A DNA stretch of 35,600 nt from Minisyncoccota bacterium (GTDB taxonomy: Bacteria; Patescibacteriota; Minisyncoccia; Minisyncoccales; JAQTPW01): the NCBI GenBank assembly GCA_028712565.1, contig JAQTPW010000002.1:1-35600 (forward strand). Direction: 5' to 3'. The notes beneath the pieces are model-generated. The model had not been told where the DNA came from. It saw only the letters and a list, made by a program, of their open reading frames with translations, and did no database searches. Below, one piece after another: positions 4,173 to 19,323 of the stretch; the stretch's first letter is position 1; each line of letters starts with the position of its first letter. Made by a program: the position numbers and the translations under genes.

Positions 4173-4445
4173 TTAATTGTTGCGCAAGAATTCTTTGAGA
4201 GTATTGTGATTATCAAAAACAATACGAGGCACCTCTATCCCTTTTTTATGATATGCATCTATCAGTTTCTCGTAAGAATCAATCCTATTTTTGACGATTC
4301 TCTCAAGGATTTCCGGATGATCGGCGCTCTTTCTTTTTGCTTCAAGCAGCTCTTGGGGTGTTATCCTTTCCTCTTTGATTCTCCCTGATAAAGAAAATTT
4401 TGCCGTTTTTTTGAATAGGTTTGTAAATAAGTTTAAAAGTCCCAT
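4173..4445 (-). CDS. hypothetical protein, 90 aa
   Basis: This is an unrecognised small basic protein. Its N-terminus is a short amphipathic stretch (MGLLNLFTNLFKK) that could associate with the membrane. The rest is charged and mostly predicted helical, including ELLEAKRKSADHPEILERI and a C-terminal half with FDNHNTLKEFL. It is the first gene of the minus-strand group and is divergent from uvrB, with 55 bases between the two starts. I see no motif that suggests a function. It is kept because the frame is complete, the start lies at the divergent intergenic region, and no better frame competes. Confidence 0.5.
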   Translation of the reverse strand: MGLLNLFTNLFKKTAKFSLSGRIKEERITPQELLEAKRKSADHPEILERIVKNRIDSYEKLIDAYHKKGIEVPRIVFDNHNTLKEFLRNN

Positions 4446-4500: not shown

Positions 4501-6468
4501 ATGTTTAAATTAGTCGCAAAATTCAAACCTACCGGGGATCAGCCGCAGGCGATTGAAAAACTGGTTAAAAACTTAAAATCCGGAGTAAAACATCAGGTGC
4601 TTTTGGGCGTCACTGGTTCTGGAAAAACTTTTACTATGGCTTCGGTGATTGAAAAGATTGAAAAGCCGGTTTTAATAATTTCCCATAATAAAACTTTGGC
4701 CGCCCAGACCTATCAGGAATTCAAGGAATTTTTCCCGGAAAATGGGATCCACTATTTTGTTTCTTATTATGATTATTACCAGCCCGAGGCCTATATTCCC
4801 CAAACCGACACTTACATAGAAAAAGATTCAAAAATAAATGAAGAAATTGACAGGTTACGCCATGCCGCAGTCCAAGATTTATTAACCAGAAAAGATGTAG
4901 TAATTGTGGCTTCCGTTTCCTGCATTTACAATATCGGCTCTCCTGAAGATTATCAGCAAGTTTCTCTGGAAATAAAAAAAGGCAAGACAATAAAAAGAAA
5001 AGATTTCCTGTCGCATTTGGTAAGTTTGCAATACCAAAGAAACGAGGTTGATTTTAAGCCGGGGAGTTTCAGGGTCAGAGGAAATAATATAGATATTTAT
5101 TTAGTAACCGGAGAGGCAATTTTGAGAATCGAATTTTTAGGCGACACTGTTTCGCAAATCTACACAAATATACCACGAATATCACAAATAGGCATTAGTG
5201 AAATTGGTGGTAAATTCGCGCCGATTAGTGCAATAAAGATATACCCTGCTCATTTCTGGGTAACCCCACAAGAAAAAGTAAATATCGCAGTTGAAAATAT
5301 AAGATTAGAACTTCAAGAAAGGCTAAAATATTTTAAAAAACAAAAAAAATTAGTCGAAGCCCAAAGATTGGAGCAAAGAGTAAACTATGATTTGGAGATG
5401 TTAAAAGAAACCGGGTTTTGCCATGGAATTGAGAATTACTCAAGGCATTTGGAATTCAGGAAGCCGGGGCAGGCCCCTTATACCCTTATTGATTACTTCC
5501 CGAAAGATTTTTTGATTTTTATTGATGAATCCCACCAAACTCTTTCCCAGCTTCACGCCATGGCAAACCAAGACAGGGCAAGAAAAAAATCTTTAATTGA
5601 GTACGGCTTCCGCCTGCCTTCTGCAATAGACAACCGGCCTTTGACTTATCAAGAATTCGAAGAAAGAAAAAACCAAATAGTTTATGTATCAGCCACTCCT
5701 TCTGAAGAAGAAAAGGGAAAGGCCCTTCAAGAAGCTCAGGGAAAAACAAAATATATTATTGAACAGTTAATAAGGCCTACTGGGCTTGTAGAACCTTCGA
5801 TTGAAATCAGACCGACTAAAAACCAAGTAAAAGATTTAATAGATGAAATAAAGAGCCGGATTTTGAAAAAACAAAGGGTATTAGCTATTACTTTGACAAA
5901 AAGATTAGCAGAGGCACTTTCTGACTATTTGGTTGAAGAAGGAATTTCCTGCCAATGGTTGCATTCTGAAGTTAAAACATTGGAAAGGCCAAAAATTTTA
6001 AACGAATTAAGAGAGGGAAAATATGATGTTTTAGTTGGAATTAATTTATTAAGAGAAGGGCTGGATTTGCCAGAAGTTTCTTTAGTAGCGATTTTGGACG
6101 CCGACAAAGAAGGGTTCTTAAGATCAGAAACTACCTTAATCCAGACCATGGGAAGAGCTGCAAGAAATATAAACGGCCATGTAATTTTGTATGCCGACAA
6201 AATTACAGAATCGATGAGAAAAGCCATAAATGAAATAAAAAGAAGGAGAAAAATACAGGAAGATTATAATAAAAAACAGGGAATTACACCAAAACAGATA
6301 ATAAAAGAGATTAGGGCTTGGGAATTTGCCGCAAAAGAAAAAGAGGTGTCTGCTGAATTTTGGATGGTTCGCGACAAAAAACTTTTGGACAAAGAGATGA
6401 AAGAAGCTGCCAAAAATTTGGATTTTGAAAGGGCGGCAAAAATTCGCGATTTGATTAAAAAATTATAA
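4501..6468 (+). CDS. uvrB: UvrB, excinuclease ABC subunit B
   Basis: UvrB is the damage-verifying helicase of nucleotide excision repair. UvrA loads it onto DNA and it then recruits UvrC. The 655-aa length is normal. Visible parts are Walker A GVTGSGKT (36-43), the beta-hairpin region YYDYYQPEAYIP (89-100) that inserts between the strands, DESH (342-345), helicase motifs with LLREGLDLPEVSLVAILDADKEGFLRS in the second RecA domain, and a C-terminal UVR helix pair (KNLDFERAAKIRDLI) that binds UvrC. Residues 219-246, between LGDTVS and IYPAHFWVTP, are unusual. They replace the normal segment of about 20 residues with repeat-encoded sequence that is roughly 8 residues longer and resembles the tract in murE. 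The permease gene follows after 9 bases. Confidence 0.97.
   Translation: MFKLVAKFKPTGDQPQAIEKLVKNLKSGVKHQVLLGVTGSGKTFTMASVIEKIEKPVLIISHNKTLAAQTYQEFKEFFPENGIHYFVSYYDYYQPEAYIPQTDTYIEKDSKINEEIDRLRHAAVQDLLTRKDVVIVASVSCIYNIGSPEDYQQVSLEIKKGKTIKRKDFLSHLVSLQYQRNEVDFKPGSFRVRGNNIDIYLVTGEAILRIEFLGDTVSQIYTNIPRISQIGISEIGGKFAPISAIKIYPAHFWVTPQEKVNIAVENIRLELQERLKYFKKQKKLVEAQRLEQRVNYDLEMLKETGFCHGIENYSRHLEFRKPGQAPYTLIDYFPKDFLIFIDESHQTLSQLHAMANQDRARKKSLIEYGFRLPSAIDNRPLTYQEFEERKNQIVYVSATPSEEEKGKALQEAQGKTKYIIEQLIRPTGLVEPSIEIRPTKNQVKDLIDEIKSRILKKQRVLAITLTKRLAEALSDYLVEEGISCQWLHSEVKTLERPKILNELREGKYDVLVGINLLREGLDLPEVSLVAILDADKEGFLRSETTLIQTMGRAARNINGHVILYADKITESMRKAINEIKRRRKIQEDYNKKQGITPKQIIKEIRAWEFAAKEKEVSAEFWMVRDKKLLDKEMKEAAKNLDFERAAKIRDLIKKL
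5155..5238. repeat. in-frame approx. 10-bp-periodic repeat inside uvrB
   Basis: The words CACAAATATA, CCACGAATAT, CACAAATAG, ATTAGTGAAA, ATTGGTGGTAAATT and ATTAGTGC follow one another. They encode residues 219-246, including ISEIGGKFAPISA. The murE tract encodes ISDIGGKLVKISA from nearly the same DNA words, so the two tracts are copies of one element kept in the same frame. Confidence 0.75.
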
Positions 6469-16528: not shown

Positions 16529-17836
16529 ATGCCGGAAGTTTCAAAAAAAATTACAGGACAGATAGAGATCCCGGAAAATGTTTTTGAAGAAATAAAAAAC
16601 AGCGTTAAGAATATTTCTGATCTTAAAGAAAAAATCGAGTCTTATTTGGCAAAAGACGTTACCAAAATTTTGGAAATTATTTTTGGCGGAGCGATTTCTT
16701 TGGAGGCGTCAGATGTCCACATAGAGCCAATATCTGATGCGGCAAAAATCAGGATAAGGATTGACGGAGCCTTGCAGGATGTGCTTCTTTTGGATAAAAA
16801 TATTTATGAAAATATTCTTTCCAGGATAAAGCTTCTTTCAGAAATTAAATTAAATGTCAGCGATCGGCCGCAGGATGGCCGGTTTTCTATTTTTTGGGAT
16901 GAAATCCAAATTGAAATAAGGACCTCGGTTTTGCCGGCAGAATACGGAGAATCAATTGTTTTAAGGATTTTAAACCCAAAAAGCTTGCTGGATATGGAAA
17001 CTCTGGGGTTAAGAAAAGACCTGCTCGCCACTTTTAAAGGAGAAATTGAAAAGCCAAACGGAATGATAATCGTTACCGGCCCCACCGGATCCGGAAAAAC
17101 CACGACTTTATATACTTTTCTAAAAAAAATCCAAAAACCAGAAATTAAAATAATAACAATTGAAGACCCTATTGAATATCATTTGGAAGGGATTTCCCAA
17201 ACTCAAGTCGCGCAGGAAAAAGGGTATGATTTTGCAAATGGATTAAAATCCATTATGCGCCAGGACCCGGATGTAATACTTGTCGGAGAGATCCGCGACT
17301 TGGAAACCGTGGATATCGCCCTTCAGGCGGCTTTGACCGGGCATTTGGTTTTAACCACTCTGCATACAAATGATGCCGCCGGAACTATTGCCAGATTATT
17401 GAGTTTAGGGGCAAAATTGTCAAATATAGGCCCGGCAATAAATATGGTAATAGCCGAAAGATTATCAAGGAGGGTTTGCGAAAAATGCGTTGAATTTTGG
17501 CCCATTTCCGGAGAAGAATTAAAAAAATTCCAAATAGGATTATTCGGCTTGTCAGAAATTTTAGAATTGCCGGAAATCGGCTCGCAAACAAAAATCCCTC
17601 ATGCCAAAGGATGCAGGGATTGCAATTTTACCGGATACAGGGGCCGGGTAGGAATTTTTGAAGCTTTTTTAATTGATGATGAAATGGAAAAATTTATATT
17701 AACCTCGCCGTCAATTGCGGCTTTAAAAGAAAGAGCCATTGAAAGAGGAATGGTGACAATGTATCAAGACGGCTTGGTCAAGGTTTTAGAAGGCGTTACA
17801 ACCTTGGATGAAATAGAAAGGATAACCGGCGAATAA
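16529..17836 (+). CDS. PilB/GspE-family assembly ATPase, short form
   Basis: This hexameric ATPase type powers pilus or type II secretion-like fibre assembly at the inner membrane. The 435-aa protein has N-terminal PAS-like sequence with EASDVHIEP, Walker A GPTGSGKT (184-191), the Asp box (IEDPIEYHLEG), Walker B with the His box (GEIRDLETVDIALQAALTGHLVLTTLHTND, about 253-282) and a zinc-binding pair of CXXC motifs (C317/C320 and C362/C365). It is about 100 residues shorter than PilB and lacks the N-terminal MshEN-type domain. No other pilus genes are adjacent, so its partners (PilC, pilins, PilD) must be elsewhere. Its stop overlaps the terminator of the convergent small RNA gene. Confidence 0.93.
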   Translation: MPEVSKKITGQIEIPENVFEEIKNSVKNISDLKEKIESYLAKDVTKILEIIFGGAISLEASDVHIEPISDAAKIRIRIDGALQDVLLLDKNIYENILSRIKLLSEIKLNVSDRPQDGRFSIFWDEIQIEIRTSVLPAEYGESIVLRILNPKSLLDMETLGLRKDLLATFKGEIEKPNGMIIVTGPTGSGKTTTLYTFLKKIQKPEIKIITIEDPIEYHLEGISQTQVAQEKGYDFANGLKSIMRQDPDVILVGEIRDLETVDIALQAALTGHLVLTTLHTNDAAGTIARLLSLGAKLSNIGPAINMVIAERLSRRVCEKCVEFWPISGEELKKFQIGLFGLSEILELPEIGSQTKIPHAKGCRDCNFTGYRGRVGIFEAFLIDDEMEKFILTSPSIAALKERAIERGMVTMYQDGLVKVLEGVTTLDEIERITGE

Positions 17837-17978
17837 AAAAACTAACCCCAAGGCCGGGGGCAGCTTAAGTATTAGGAACTAAGTTTAGAGTTTTTCCGAG
17901 GAATAGCCCAGTGCAAACCAGGCCATCCGGCTAAGAAAAACTCCGGGACCCCCAGCCTTGGAGTTAGCTATCTTACAT
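17835..17978 (-). ncRNA. structured small RNA gene, family not assigned (about 144 nt)
   Basis: On the minus strand a consensus promoter (17985-18013) is followed by a self-pairing sequence and then seven T's (17835-17841). The closing helix pairs 17949-17967 with 17842-17860: about 17 of 19 positions pair, including CTAAC/GTTAG, CCAAGGC/GCCTTGG and CCCCC/GGGGG. Inside it, a perfect 9-bp helix (17888-17896 with 17935-17943) carries a 38-nt apical region, and the 3' side holds a small hairpin (17864-17870 with 17878-17883). Closing stem, asymmetric bubble with a 3'-side hairpin, and apical stem together recall 6S RNA. I cannot match conserved 6S sequence, and the RNA is shorter than usual. The SRP RNA GGAAGG apical motif is absent. 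There is no open frame. It is a likely RNA gene of unknown class. Confidence 0.75.
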
Positions 17979-17984
17979 CTTGCT

Positions 17985-18013
17985 ATATTAGCAGATTATG
18001 TTAAATTTGTCAA
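17985..18013 (-). promoter_or_regulatory. sigma70 promoter of the small RNA gene
   Basis: The minus strand reads TTGACA (18008-18013), a 17-bp spacer, then TAATAT (17985-17990). This is one of the best promoters in the window. The -35 lies over the first codons of the divergent lamin-tail gene. The expected start is near 17978. Confidence 0.75.
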
Positions 18014-19323
18014 GCCCCCGAGGGTTCATAAGAGCTTCAAGAGACTTTAAGATAAAGCTGGCTCTATTTTTATTTTTGAGCTTATTTTTGCCTTTTTTTT
18101 CAAAAGCCGCGGAAAATTCGGGAATATTTATTAATGAAATTTCCTGGATGGGAGCAAAAATTGAAGGAATTGATTCTAAAAACTGGTGGAGATACGAATG
18201 GCTGGAGATTTATAATAATAACGAAGCCCCGGCCGTGCTTGATGGCTGGAAAATAGAGCTTAATAGGGTGAGCCTTGATTGGGCGCTTGATTTAAAAGGA
18301 GAGGTTTTGGGCAAAAGCTATTTTTTGGTTTCGGCTTCTGATAAAATTCCTTCTTTTGACCTAAATTATTCAAATCTTTCAGGAAAATTCGTAAACAGCG
18401 GGCAAAAGGTTTTATTAAAAAATAAGGAGGGGGAAATTGCAGACGAGGTAAATTGCGAAAATGGCTGGTTTGCCGGAGACAATGAAACAAAGCAGACAAT
18501 GGAAAAGAAAAATTCTGCTTTGCCGGGAAACGATCCAGATAATTGGCAAGATAGCGAAAATTCAGGCGGAACCCCTAAGGCAAAAAACAGCGCAACTGCA
18601 GATTTTTATAAAGAGCCGGAAATAAAAACAGAGCCGGCTTCTGAGACGGCATTTGAGCTCCCGGCCCAATCAAACAGAGAAGAGGAAGAGACAATTTTAG
18701 AAAAAGCAGGGACGGCCATAAAAGAGAACGTTTATCCTGGCGGAATAATATTTAATGAAATCCTCCCCTCCCCTGAAGGCGCAGATGAAGAAAATGAGTG
18801 GATTGAAATTTTTAACAAAAATAATTTTGAAATTGACCTTTCCGGCTGGAAAATGTCTGACGCGAACGGAAAAACGATAAATTATATTTTTCCGCAGGGA
18901 ATAAAACTGGGGCCAAAAAAATTTTTGGTTTTAAAAAGGCCCGAAACCAAAATTGTTTTAAATAACGATGCTGACGGATTAAGGCTTTTCACTCCTGACG
19001 GAAATTTGGCTGATAGCGTAAATTACGAAAAGGCTTCTGTCGGCCTTTCTTATAATTTAACTGCTTCTGATTGGATGTGGAGCGGTTCCCCCAGCCCCGG
19101 ATCTGAAAATGCCATTTATTCTGAAAATATAACTCCTGCCCCTGGGGAAAATCTTGCAGCTTCCGAGAAAGCCGCAGACTCTGCTACTAAAAATAATCTG
19201 GCGCAAATTAATGAAAGTTTTCCCGGAAATTCCAATAGCTTTCCTATTTTAATTTTTGCCGCATTTTTAGCTTTATTTTCCGGAATTATTATTTTAGTCC
19301 TAAGAAAGGTTGCATCAAAATAA
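17998..19323 (+). CDS. exported protein with two lamin-tail domains and a C-terminal membrane anchor
   Basis: The 441-aa protein has an N-terminal signal segment (FKIKLALFLFLSLFLPFF, then SKAAEN). It has two lamin-tail (LTD) domains at about residues 40-195 and 245-375, recognisable from IFINEISWMG...WLEIYN, LDGWKIE and IIFNEILPSPEG...WIEIFNKN, DLSGWKMSD. A final hydrophobic helix (FPILIFAAFLALFSGIIILVL) with a basic tail anchors the C-terminus. The domains are Ig-like beta folds, common on the surface of such bacteria and sometimes linked to nucleases or adhesion, but no catalytic residues are visible here. The linkers are rich in Glu, Ala and Pro. The start codon lies under the promoter of the antisense small RNA, so the two may influence each other. 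Confidence 0.85.
   Translation: MLNLSSPRGFIRASRDFKIKLALFLFLSLFLPFFSKAAENSGIFINEISWMGAKIEGIDSKNWWRYEWLEIYNNNEAPAVLDGWKIELNRVSLDWALDLKGEVLGKSYFLVSASDKIPSFDLNYSNLSGKFVNSGQKVLLKNKEGEIADEVNCENGWFAGDNETKQTMEKKNSALPGNDPDNWQDSENSGGTPKAKNSATADFYKEPEIKTEPASETAFELPAQSNREEEETILEKAGTAIKENVYPGGIIFNEILPSPEGADEENEWIEIFNKNNFEIDLSGWKMSDANGKTINYIFPQGIKLGPKKFLVLKRPETKIVLNNDADGLRLFTPDGNLADSVNYEKASVGLSYNLTASDWMWSGSPSPGSENAIYSENITPAPGENLAASEKAADSATKNNLAQINESFPGNSNSFPILIFAAFLALFSGIIILVLRKVASK

Follow-up and report, generated by a model that had tools for sequence, protein, structure and literature searches.

The minus strand of the window (the whole stretch of DNA that was analysed, 35,600 nucleotides) carries, at 17978-17835, the gene for a folded RNA of about 141-144 nt, hereafter the minus-strand RNA. 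That this is a standalone structured non-coding RNA gene, with its own promoter, its own terminator, a conserved covarying structure and no open reading frame, is strongly supported. The family to which it belongs is apparently undescribed and, to our knowledge, the Candidate Phyla Radiation has so far yielded very few described non-coding RNAs. The first-pass annotation of this DNA had proposed a structured small RNA gene, unassigned to any family, with a promoter and a terminator of its own, and this proposal has held: there is no Rfam match, the fold covaries, and both the promoter and the T-run are enriched among homologues. Judging from sequence, we put at an even chance the wider reading that the minus-strand RNA is a standalone, probably abundant, trans-acting non-coding RNA of a new family in Paceibacteria, with a role in a ribonucleoprotein via its internal loop.

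The promoter lies on the minus strand at 18013-17985, where it had first been read: the −35 hexamer is TTGACA (18008-18013) and the −10 hexamer, separated from it by a 17-nt spacer, is TAATAT (17985-17990), giving 10/12 promoter matches at the locus. An exact TTGACA is present upstream of 77 of 84 homologues, compared with 2.2% of random windows, and a promoter with at least 10/12 matches upstream of 76 of the 84 homologous loci, compared with a background of 2.0% in random windows from the same loci. Transcription would proceed from this strong promoter of the housekeeping sigma-70 type, on the strand opposite to that of the gene neighbourhood. The start is expected about 7 nt past the −10 hexamer, and the predicted non-coding RNA (17835-17978) ends with the last T of a run of seven T's (17841-17835), noticed from the outset as directly following the closing stem; the transcript would thereby end at a closing-stem terminator of its own. 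The TAA stop codon (17834-17836) of the convergent pilB-like gene lies partly within the T-run, and a run of at least four T's is found at the 3′ end of 70/84 homologues, compared with 26% of random stretches. The promoter had also been said to overlap the start of the divergent lamin-tail gene; the first ATG of that gene (17998) does lie in the spacer, but its signal peptide begins later and the real start may be downstream. The RNA contains no noteworthy reading frame on the minus strand, in keeping with the earlier reading, nor is any open reading frame conserved among the homologues, on which ground a conserved small peptide was rejected. The identities of tRNA and tmRNA were likewise rejected, as ARAGORN finds neither in the window.

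The minus-strand RNA folds as a three-way junction. Its parts are the closing stem P1, the hairpin P4 on the 3′ side and a long arm, P2-P3, interrupted by an asymmetric internal loop that is near-invariant. In P1, CTAACTCCAAGGCTGGGGG (17967-17949) pairs with CCCCCGGCCTTGGGGTTAG (17860-17842) at all 19 positions; the 19-position end stem of the first-pass annotation therefore stands, whereas the two mismatches assigned to it are both G.U wobbles. The P2 helix is formed by GGAGUUUUUCU (17934-17944) and its 3′ strand (17887-17897), and the P3 apical helix by a 5′ strand with an invariant GG (17917-17928) and a 3′ strand (17900-17912). Between these two helices lie UAGCC on the 5′ side of the internal loop (17929-17933), of which AG is conserved (the G at about 92% in the order and 100% in the class loci), and the near-invariant CCUC (17898-17901), of which the two C's pair with the GG and UC belongs to the internal loop. 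The conservation of CCUC is 97, 100, 91 and 94% in the order, and 100% at all four positions in 28 class and phylum sequences. The P4 hairpin (17884-17864), which includes the loop region UUCCUAA, and the inner 9-bp helix, GAGTTTTTC/GAAAAACTC, are both present as they had been described. The folding energy is −75.4 kcal/mol, compared with −47.0 ± 3.9 kcal/mol in 200 dinucleotide shuffles (z = −7.3; 0/200).

This fold is far beyond chance, because the structure is preserved, with covarying pairs, in homologues from dozens of the order's families. A BLAST search with the minus-strand RNA against 60 relatives in the order already reached other families. In a MAFFT alignment of 21 homologues (A1), 93.0% of the cells are paired, compared with 84.2% in shuffles, and 31 of the 46 pairs have changed on both sides, compared with 15.0 in shuffles (0/500 reach 31). 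A larger alignment (A3) holds 86 diverse members, all but one from the order, and has 94.3% of its cells paired and canonical, compared with 75.3% in shuffles and 54.7-59.2% in one-column slides; since A3 and a further alignment, A5, were fitted to the model structure, their counts lean towards it, and the slides and A1 are the less biased tests. Double changes occur in 43/46 pairs of A3 (0/500 shuffles) and in all five helices, with 820 double-change cells compared with 216 in shuffles. They extend over all 19 pairs of P1, 11/11 pairs of P2 (10/11 in the class set) and 5/5 pairs of P4, and P3 combines covariation with conservation. A set of 29 matched rows, nearly all taken from beyond the order and kept out of the broadened covariance model described below, is 90.8% paired, compared with 64.2% after shuffling. 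A lack of compensatory change among homologues had been set beforehand as the refuting outcome; such change is abundant in A1, in A3 and in the 29-row set.

The minus strand is fixed as the RNA strand by the wobble bias, the near-consensus promoter and the T-run. In the paired columns of A3 there are 443 G.U or U.G cells and 71 C.A or A.C cells, and only a minus-strand RNA would be expected to give an excess of this kind. The locus itself scores 134.8 bits on the true strand and 30.3 bits on the other strand, and the true-strand scores of the homologues are mostly far above their opposite-strand scores. A plus-strand or leader reading was rejected on the counts of G.U and C.A and on the polarity of the promoter and terminator.

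Two covariance models were used to follow the family: the first (R1) matches the locus at 17832-17976 on the minus strand with 134.8 bits (E 4e-38), and the second, broadened model (R2) with 133.6 bits. With the genomes of the order, class and phylum being samples, and the E-values of these models and of the 6S model described below being rough, R1 finds the RNA in 122/147 genomes and 89/105 genera of the order, and R2 in 90/142 genomes of the class (Parcubacteria/Paceibacteria) at E ≤ 0.05. The name of the class is taken from records with names among the nearest loci (Nealsonbacteria, Staskawiczbacteria, Paceibacterota). The only convincing matches of R2 in the phylum sample outside the class are in two genomes of one family (f102), at E 3e-8 and 2e-7. 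Among 77 loci that were fetched by their PilB-like protein alone, 23 have the RNA where it is expected and in the expected orientation (E ≤ 1e-19), and one more (L079) has it weakly. At a locus from Taylorbacteria (L050) there is an RNA-like hairpin of similar shape, but diverged, at the same place, which the model missed; thus, the counts of the distribution are probably lower bounds. This hairpin is very stable, lies downstream of a PilB-like gene (stop codon at 4419) and has the motif variant AGGA...UCCUUAA. One family of the order, f10, gave no R1 match in its four nearly complete genomes (G009, G055, G079 and G099), of which G009 has a 6S RNA; possibly, the minus-strand RNA has been lost or has strongly diverged there. 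Since some complete genomes of the order have no match, the RNA is either not strictly essential or has diverged beyond the model. Class members beyond the order (L218-L238) are longer, at mostly 151-174 nt; an additional hairpin 5′ of the junction is often present, and many of these members share a closing stem with TTAATCTGYAGGCAA/TTGCCTACAGATTAA.

At the locus, the minus-strand RNA is flanked by a convergent gene for a PilB/GspE-like type II/IV secretion ATPase (16529-17836, plus strand; PF00437, E 1e-112) and by a divergent gene for a lamin-tail-domain protein (17998-19323, plus strand; PF00932), in whose place most relatives have RuvB; yebC and ruvC come after the lamin-tail-domain gene. 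In A3, the first downstream gene is the convergent PilB-like ATPase at 82/86 loci, usually within about 100 bp, and the first upstream gene is a divergent RuvB at 48 loci and a lamin-tail or YebC gene at many others. All 26 class loci from outside the order adjoin a PilB-like gene, ruvB or both, which validates the weaker model matches, as several false matches in the phylum have neither. Four weak phylum matches (L207, L210, L211 and L212) were dismissed for having neither PilB nor RuvB beside them. One further candidate, from another class (L209), possesses a promoter and is similarly shaped, but is without PilB or RuvB neighbours. Two genomes carry two copies of the RNA each: in G050 they lie head-to-tail (L181:2956-3259), and in G010 they are 2.6 kb apart (L203:3194-3342 and 5798-5946), with one copy standing away from pilB.

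Searches of known RNA families left the minus-strand RNA unassigned. The scan with the Rfam covariance models, including 6S and SRP, which had been advised for this locus, gave no match at the gathering score in the window (Rfam 15), with nothing beyond chance matches when the local stretch was searched at E ≤ 10, and none above the gathering score at 20 class and phylum loci of the family. No description of such an RNA was found in open papers; the 2017 catalogue of 224 motifs was outside that scope, and an earlier unnamed report is possible. RNase P RNA identity was rejected, because a separate copy is present in the same genome (L239; G000:C30:39182-39653; E 1.6e-30); it scores 96.1 bits, just below the Rfam cut-off of 100. 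An rRNA-like nature of the conserved arm was rejected, as R2 finds no match in the E. coli rrnB operon.

The first-pass annotation had likened the layout to that of 6S RNA, and it could be asked whether the minus-strand RNA is the 6S of this lineage, or a 6S paralogue, which would sequester the RNA polymerase holoenzyme as a mimic of an open promoter. The likeness is real in that both are small standalone structured RNAs with a long closing stem and a distal arm, a strong promoter of their own and about one copy per genome, and a search of this genome with the 6S model (RF00013) finds no other 6S. However, RF00013 has no match to the minus-strand RNA either, be it at the gathering score, locally at E ≤ 10 or at the 20 class and phylum loci, and where 6S has a large single-stranded central bubble the minus-strand RNA has the covarying P2 helix, which leaves only a small asymmetric loop. 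It is also shorter than 6S (about 160-200 nt) and is without the CCCACC signature that patescibacterial 6S RNAs share. Furthermore, 6S is found alongside it: RF00013 matched 22/287 phylum genomes, none of them in the class, and a model tuned on 19 of these matches (R3), which recognised three held-out weak 6S loci at E 5e-8 to 7e-6, finds 6S-like RNAs in the same order (G009, G022) and class (G262, G318, G357, G383, G408), with a CCCAC motif and a closing stem; the one in G009 scores 40.2 bits with RF00013, under the cut-off of 46.4. Three genomes (G022, G262 and G318) carry both a 6S and a member of the new family. Neither model picks up the other's members on the correct strand: R3 gives no match to the RNA family at four loci (L103, L148, L218 and L224), and R2, at 19 6S loci, matches none of the 6S genes in the sense orientation. 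Since separate 6S genes coexist and the models do not cross-match, the minus-strand RNA belongs to a different family from 6S, although its own genome yielded no 6S. The neighbourhood differs as well, most of the 6S loci examined in the phylum outside the class lying no further than about 1 kb from an M50 site-2-protease-like gene and not beside pilB or ruvB (the 6S loci surveyed are L138-L143, L260-L275 and L304-L312). The identity with 6S was rejected on these grounds, and we regard a 6S role as highly improbable. A parallel in kind may also be drawn with Ms1 RNA of Actinobacteria, likewise lineage-specific and recognised by its structure and conserved gene neighbourhood (PMC9130861); Ms1, however, is about 300 nt long, has a 6S-like central bubble and binds core RNA polymerase, whereas the minus-strand RNA is shorter and lacks the bubble.

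The signal recognition particle (SRP) RNA is another housekeeping structured RNA of similar size, and the particle is absent from the order: RF00169 matches 0/142 genomes of the class, with positive controls, and SRP54-type GTPases (PF00448) are found in 0/60 genomes of the order, compared with 14/14 controls, in agreement with the loss reported for Parcubacteria in 2015 (PMC4508563). The minus-strand RNA might, then, be a functional substitute for the lost RNA. Without a match to the SRP RNA model, and with no Ffh or FtsY partner left, identity with SRP RNA was rejected; many other roles are equally possible, such that the coincidence alone carries little weight, and we hold a substitute to be extremely improbable. 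Less improbable, although still unlikely, is a base-pairing small RNA, in which the P4 loop (consensus about UCCNAA) would target Shine-Dalgarno-like GGA in mRNAs and the rest would be a scaffold for stability. Within the order, conservation of this loop is moderate (one position is C in 90%, and UCC is common), and the loop's pyrimidine-rich UCC is shared with csRNA (RF02379), a family of small RNAs that pair with ribosome-binding sites, to which there is a chance-level Rfam match (E 9.4; 16.6 bits compared with a gathering score of 57) despite an unrelated core architecture. The sequence of the P4 loop drifts, however, and is replaced in several families, the strongest conservation sits in the P2/P3 internal loop, and mRNA-pairing RNAs are not usually near-universal, nor do they usually have long covarying stems. 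The constant position, convergent to pilB, with a 3′ end that coincides with the stop codon of pilB or lies close to it, and kept across the class, would fit instead a cis element of the pilB-ruvB junction, which insulates ruvB from read-through or, as an antisense to the 3′ end, down-regulates pilB. Insulation needs neither an invariant internal loop nor compensatory, G.U-biased pairs in a distal arm, and one copy (L203) lies away from pilB, ruvB is replaced by other genes at many loci, and in f102, of another class, the RNA is about 1 kb from ruvB and without pilB; a cis role is thus rather improbable, even though synteny with pilB and ruvB runs very deep and leaves some room for it.

The reading that we favour, a trans-acting RNA recognised by a protein, takes its support from the pattern of conservation. 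The stems drift freely by compensatory change, and the positions that are invariant across the class (the GG, one G-C pair near the tip, CCUC and the AG opposite) form a single asymmetric internal loop, which separates P2 from P3, so that the best-conserved positions, the same in the order and in the class, are unpaired nucleotides of this loop or nucleotides that flank it. Conservation centred on such positions is the usual look of protein or tertiary recognition sites, and the two genomes with two copies each, one of these copies lying away from pilB, fit a trans-acting gene. Taken together, the conserved loop, the drifting stems and the two-copy genomes suggest that the RNA acts in trans and that a protein recognises its loop. 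The internal loop and the invariant GG/CC pairs would be the binding site of a putative protein partner, P1 and P2 would be a scaffold whose shape is under selection, and the RNA may act as a ribonucleoprotein on a general process and not on the neighbouring genes. More tentatively, and with some doubt, it can be imagined as a class-wide housekeeping ribonucleoprotein RNA that stands beside 6S, RNase P and rRNA, with a general task and a mechanism unlike those of known bacterial RNAs, possibly in the gap left by the loss of SRP.

The survey also indicates that 6S is widespread in Patescibacteria, although mostly under the Rfam threshold (107/287 phylum genomes by R3 at E ≤ 0.05, compared with 3/287 above the cut-off of RF00013). 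The alignments, the structure and the two covariance models make the new RNA family directly searchable and testable. An RNA of this kind, structured, driven by a near-consensus promoter, missing from Rfam and held at a single locus throughout a whole class whose genomes are strongly reduced, is a good candidate for a core function overlooked by current annotation.
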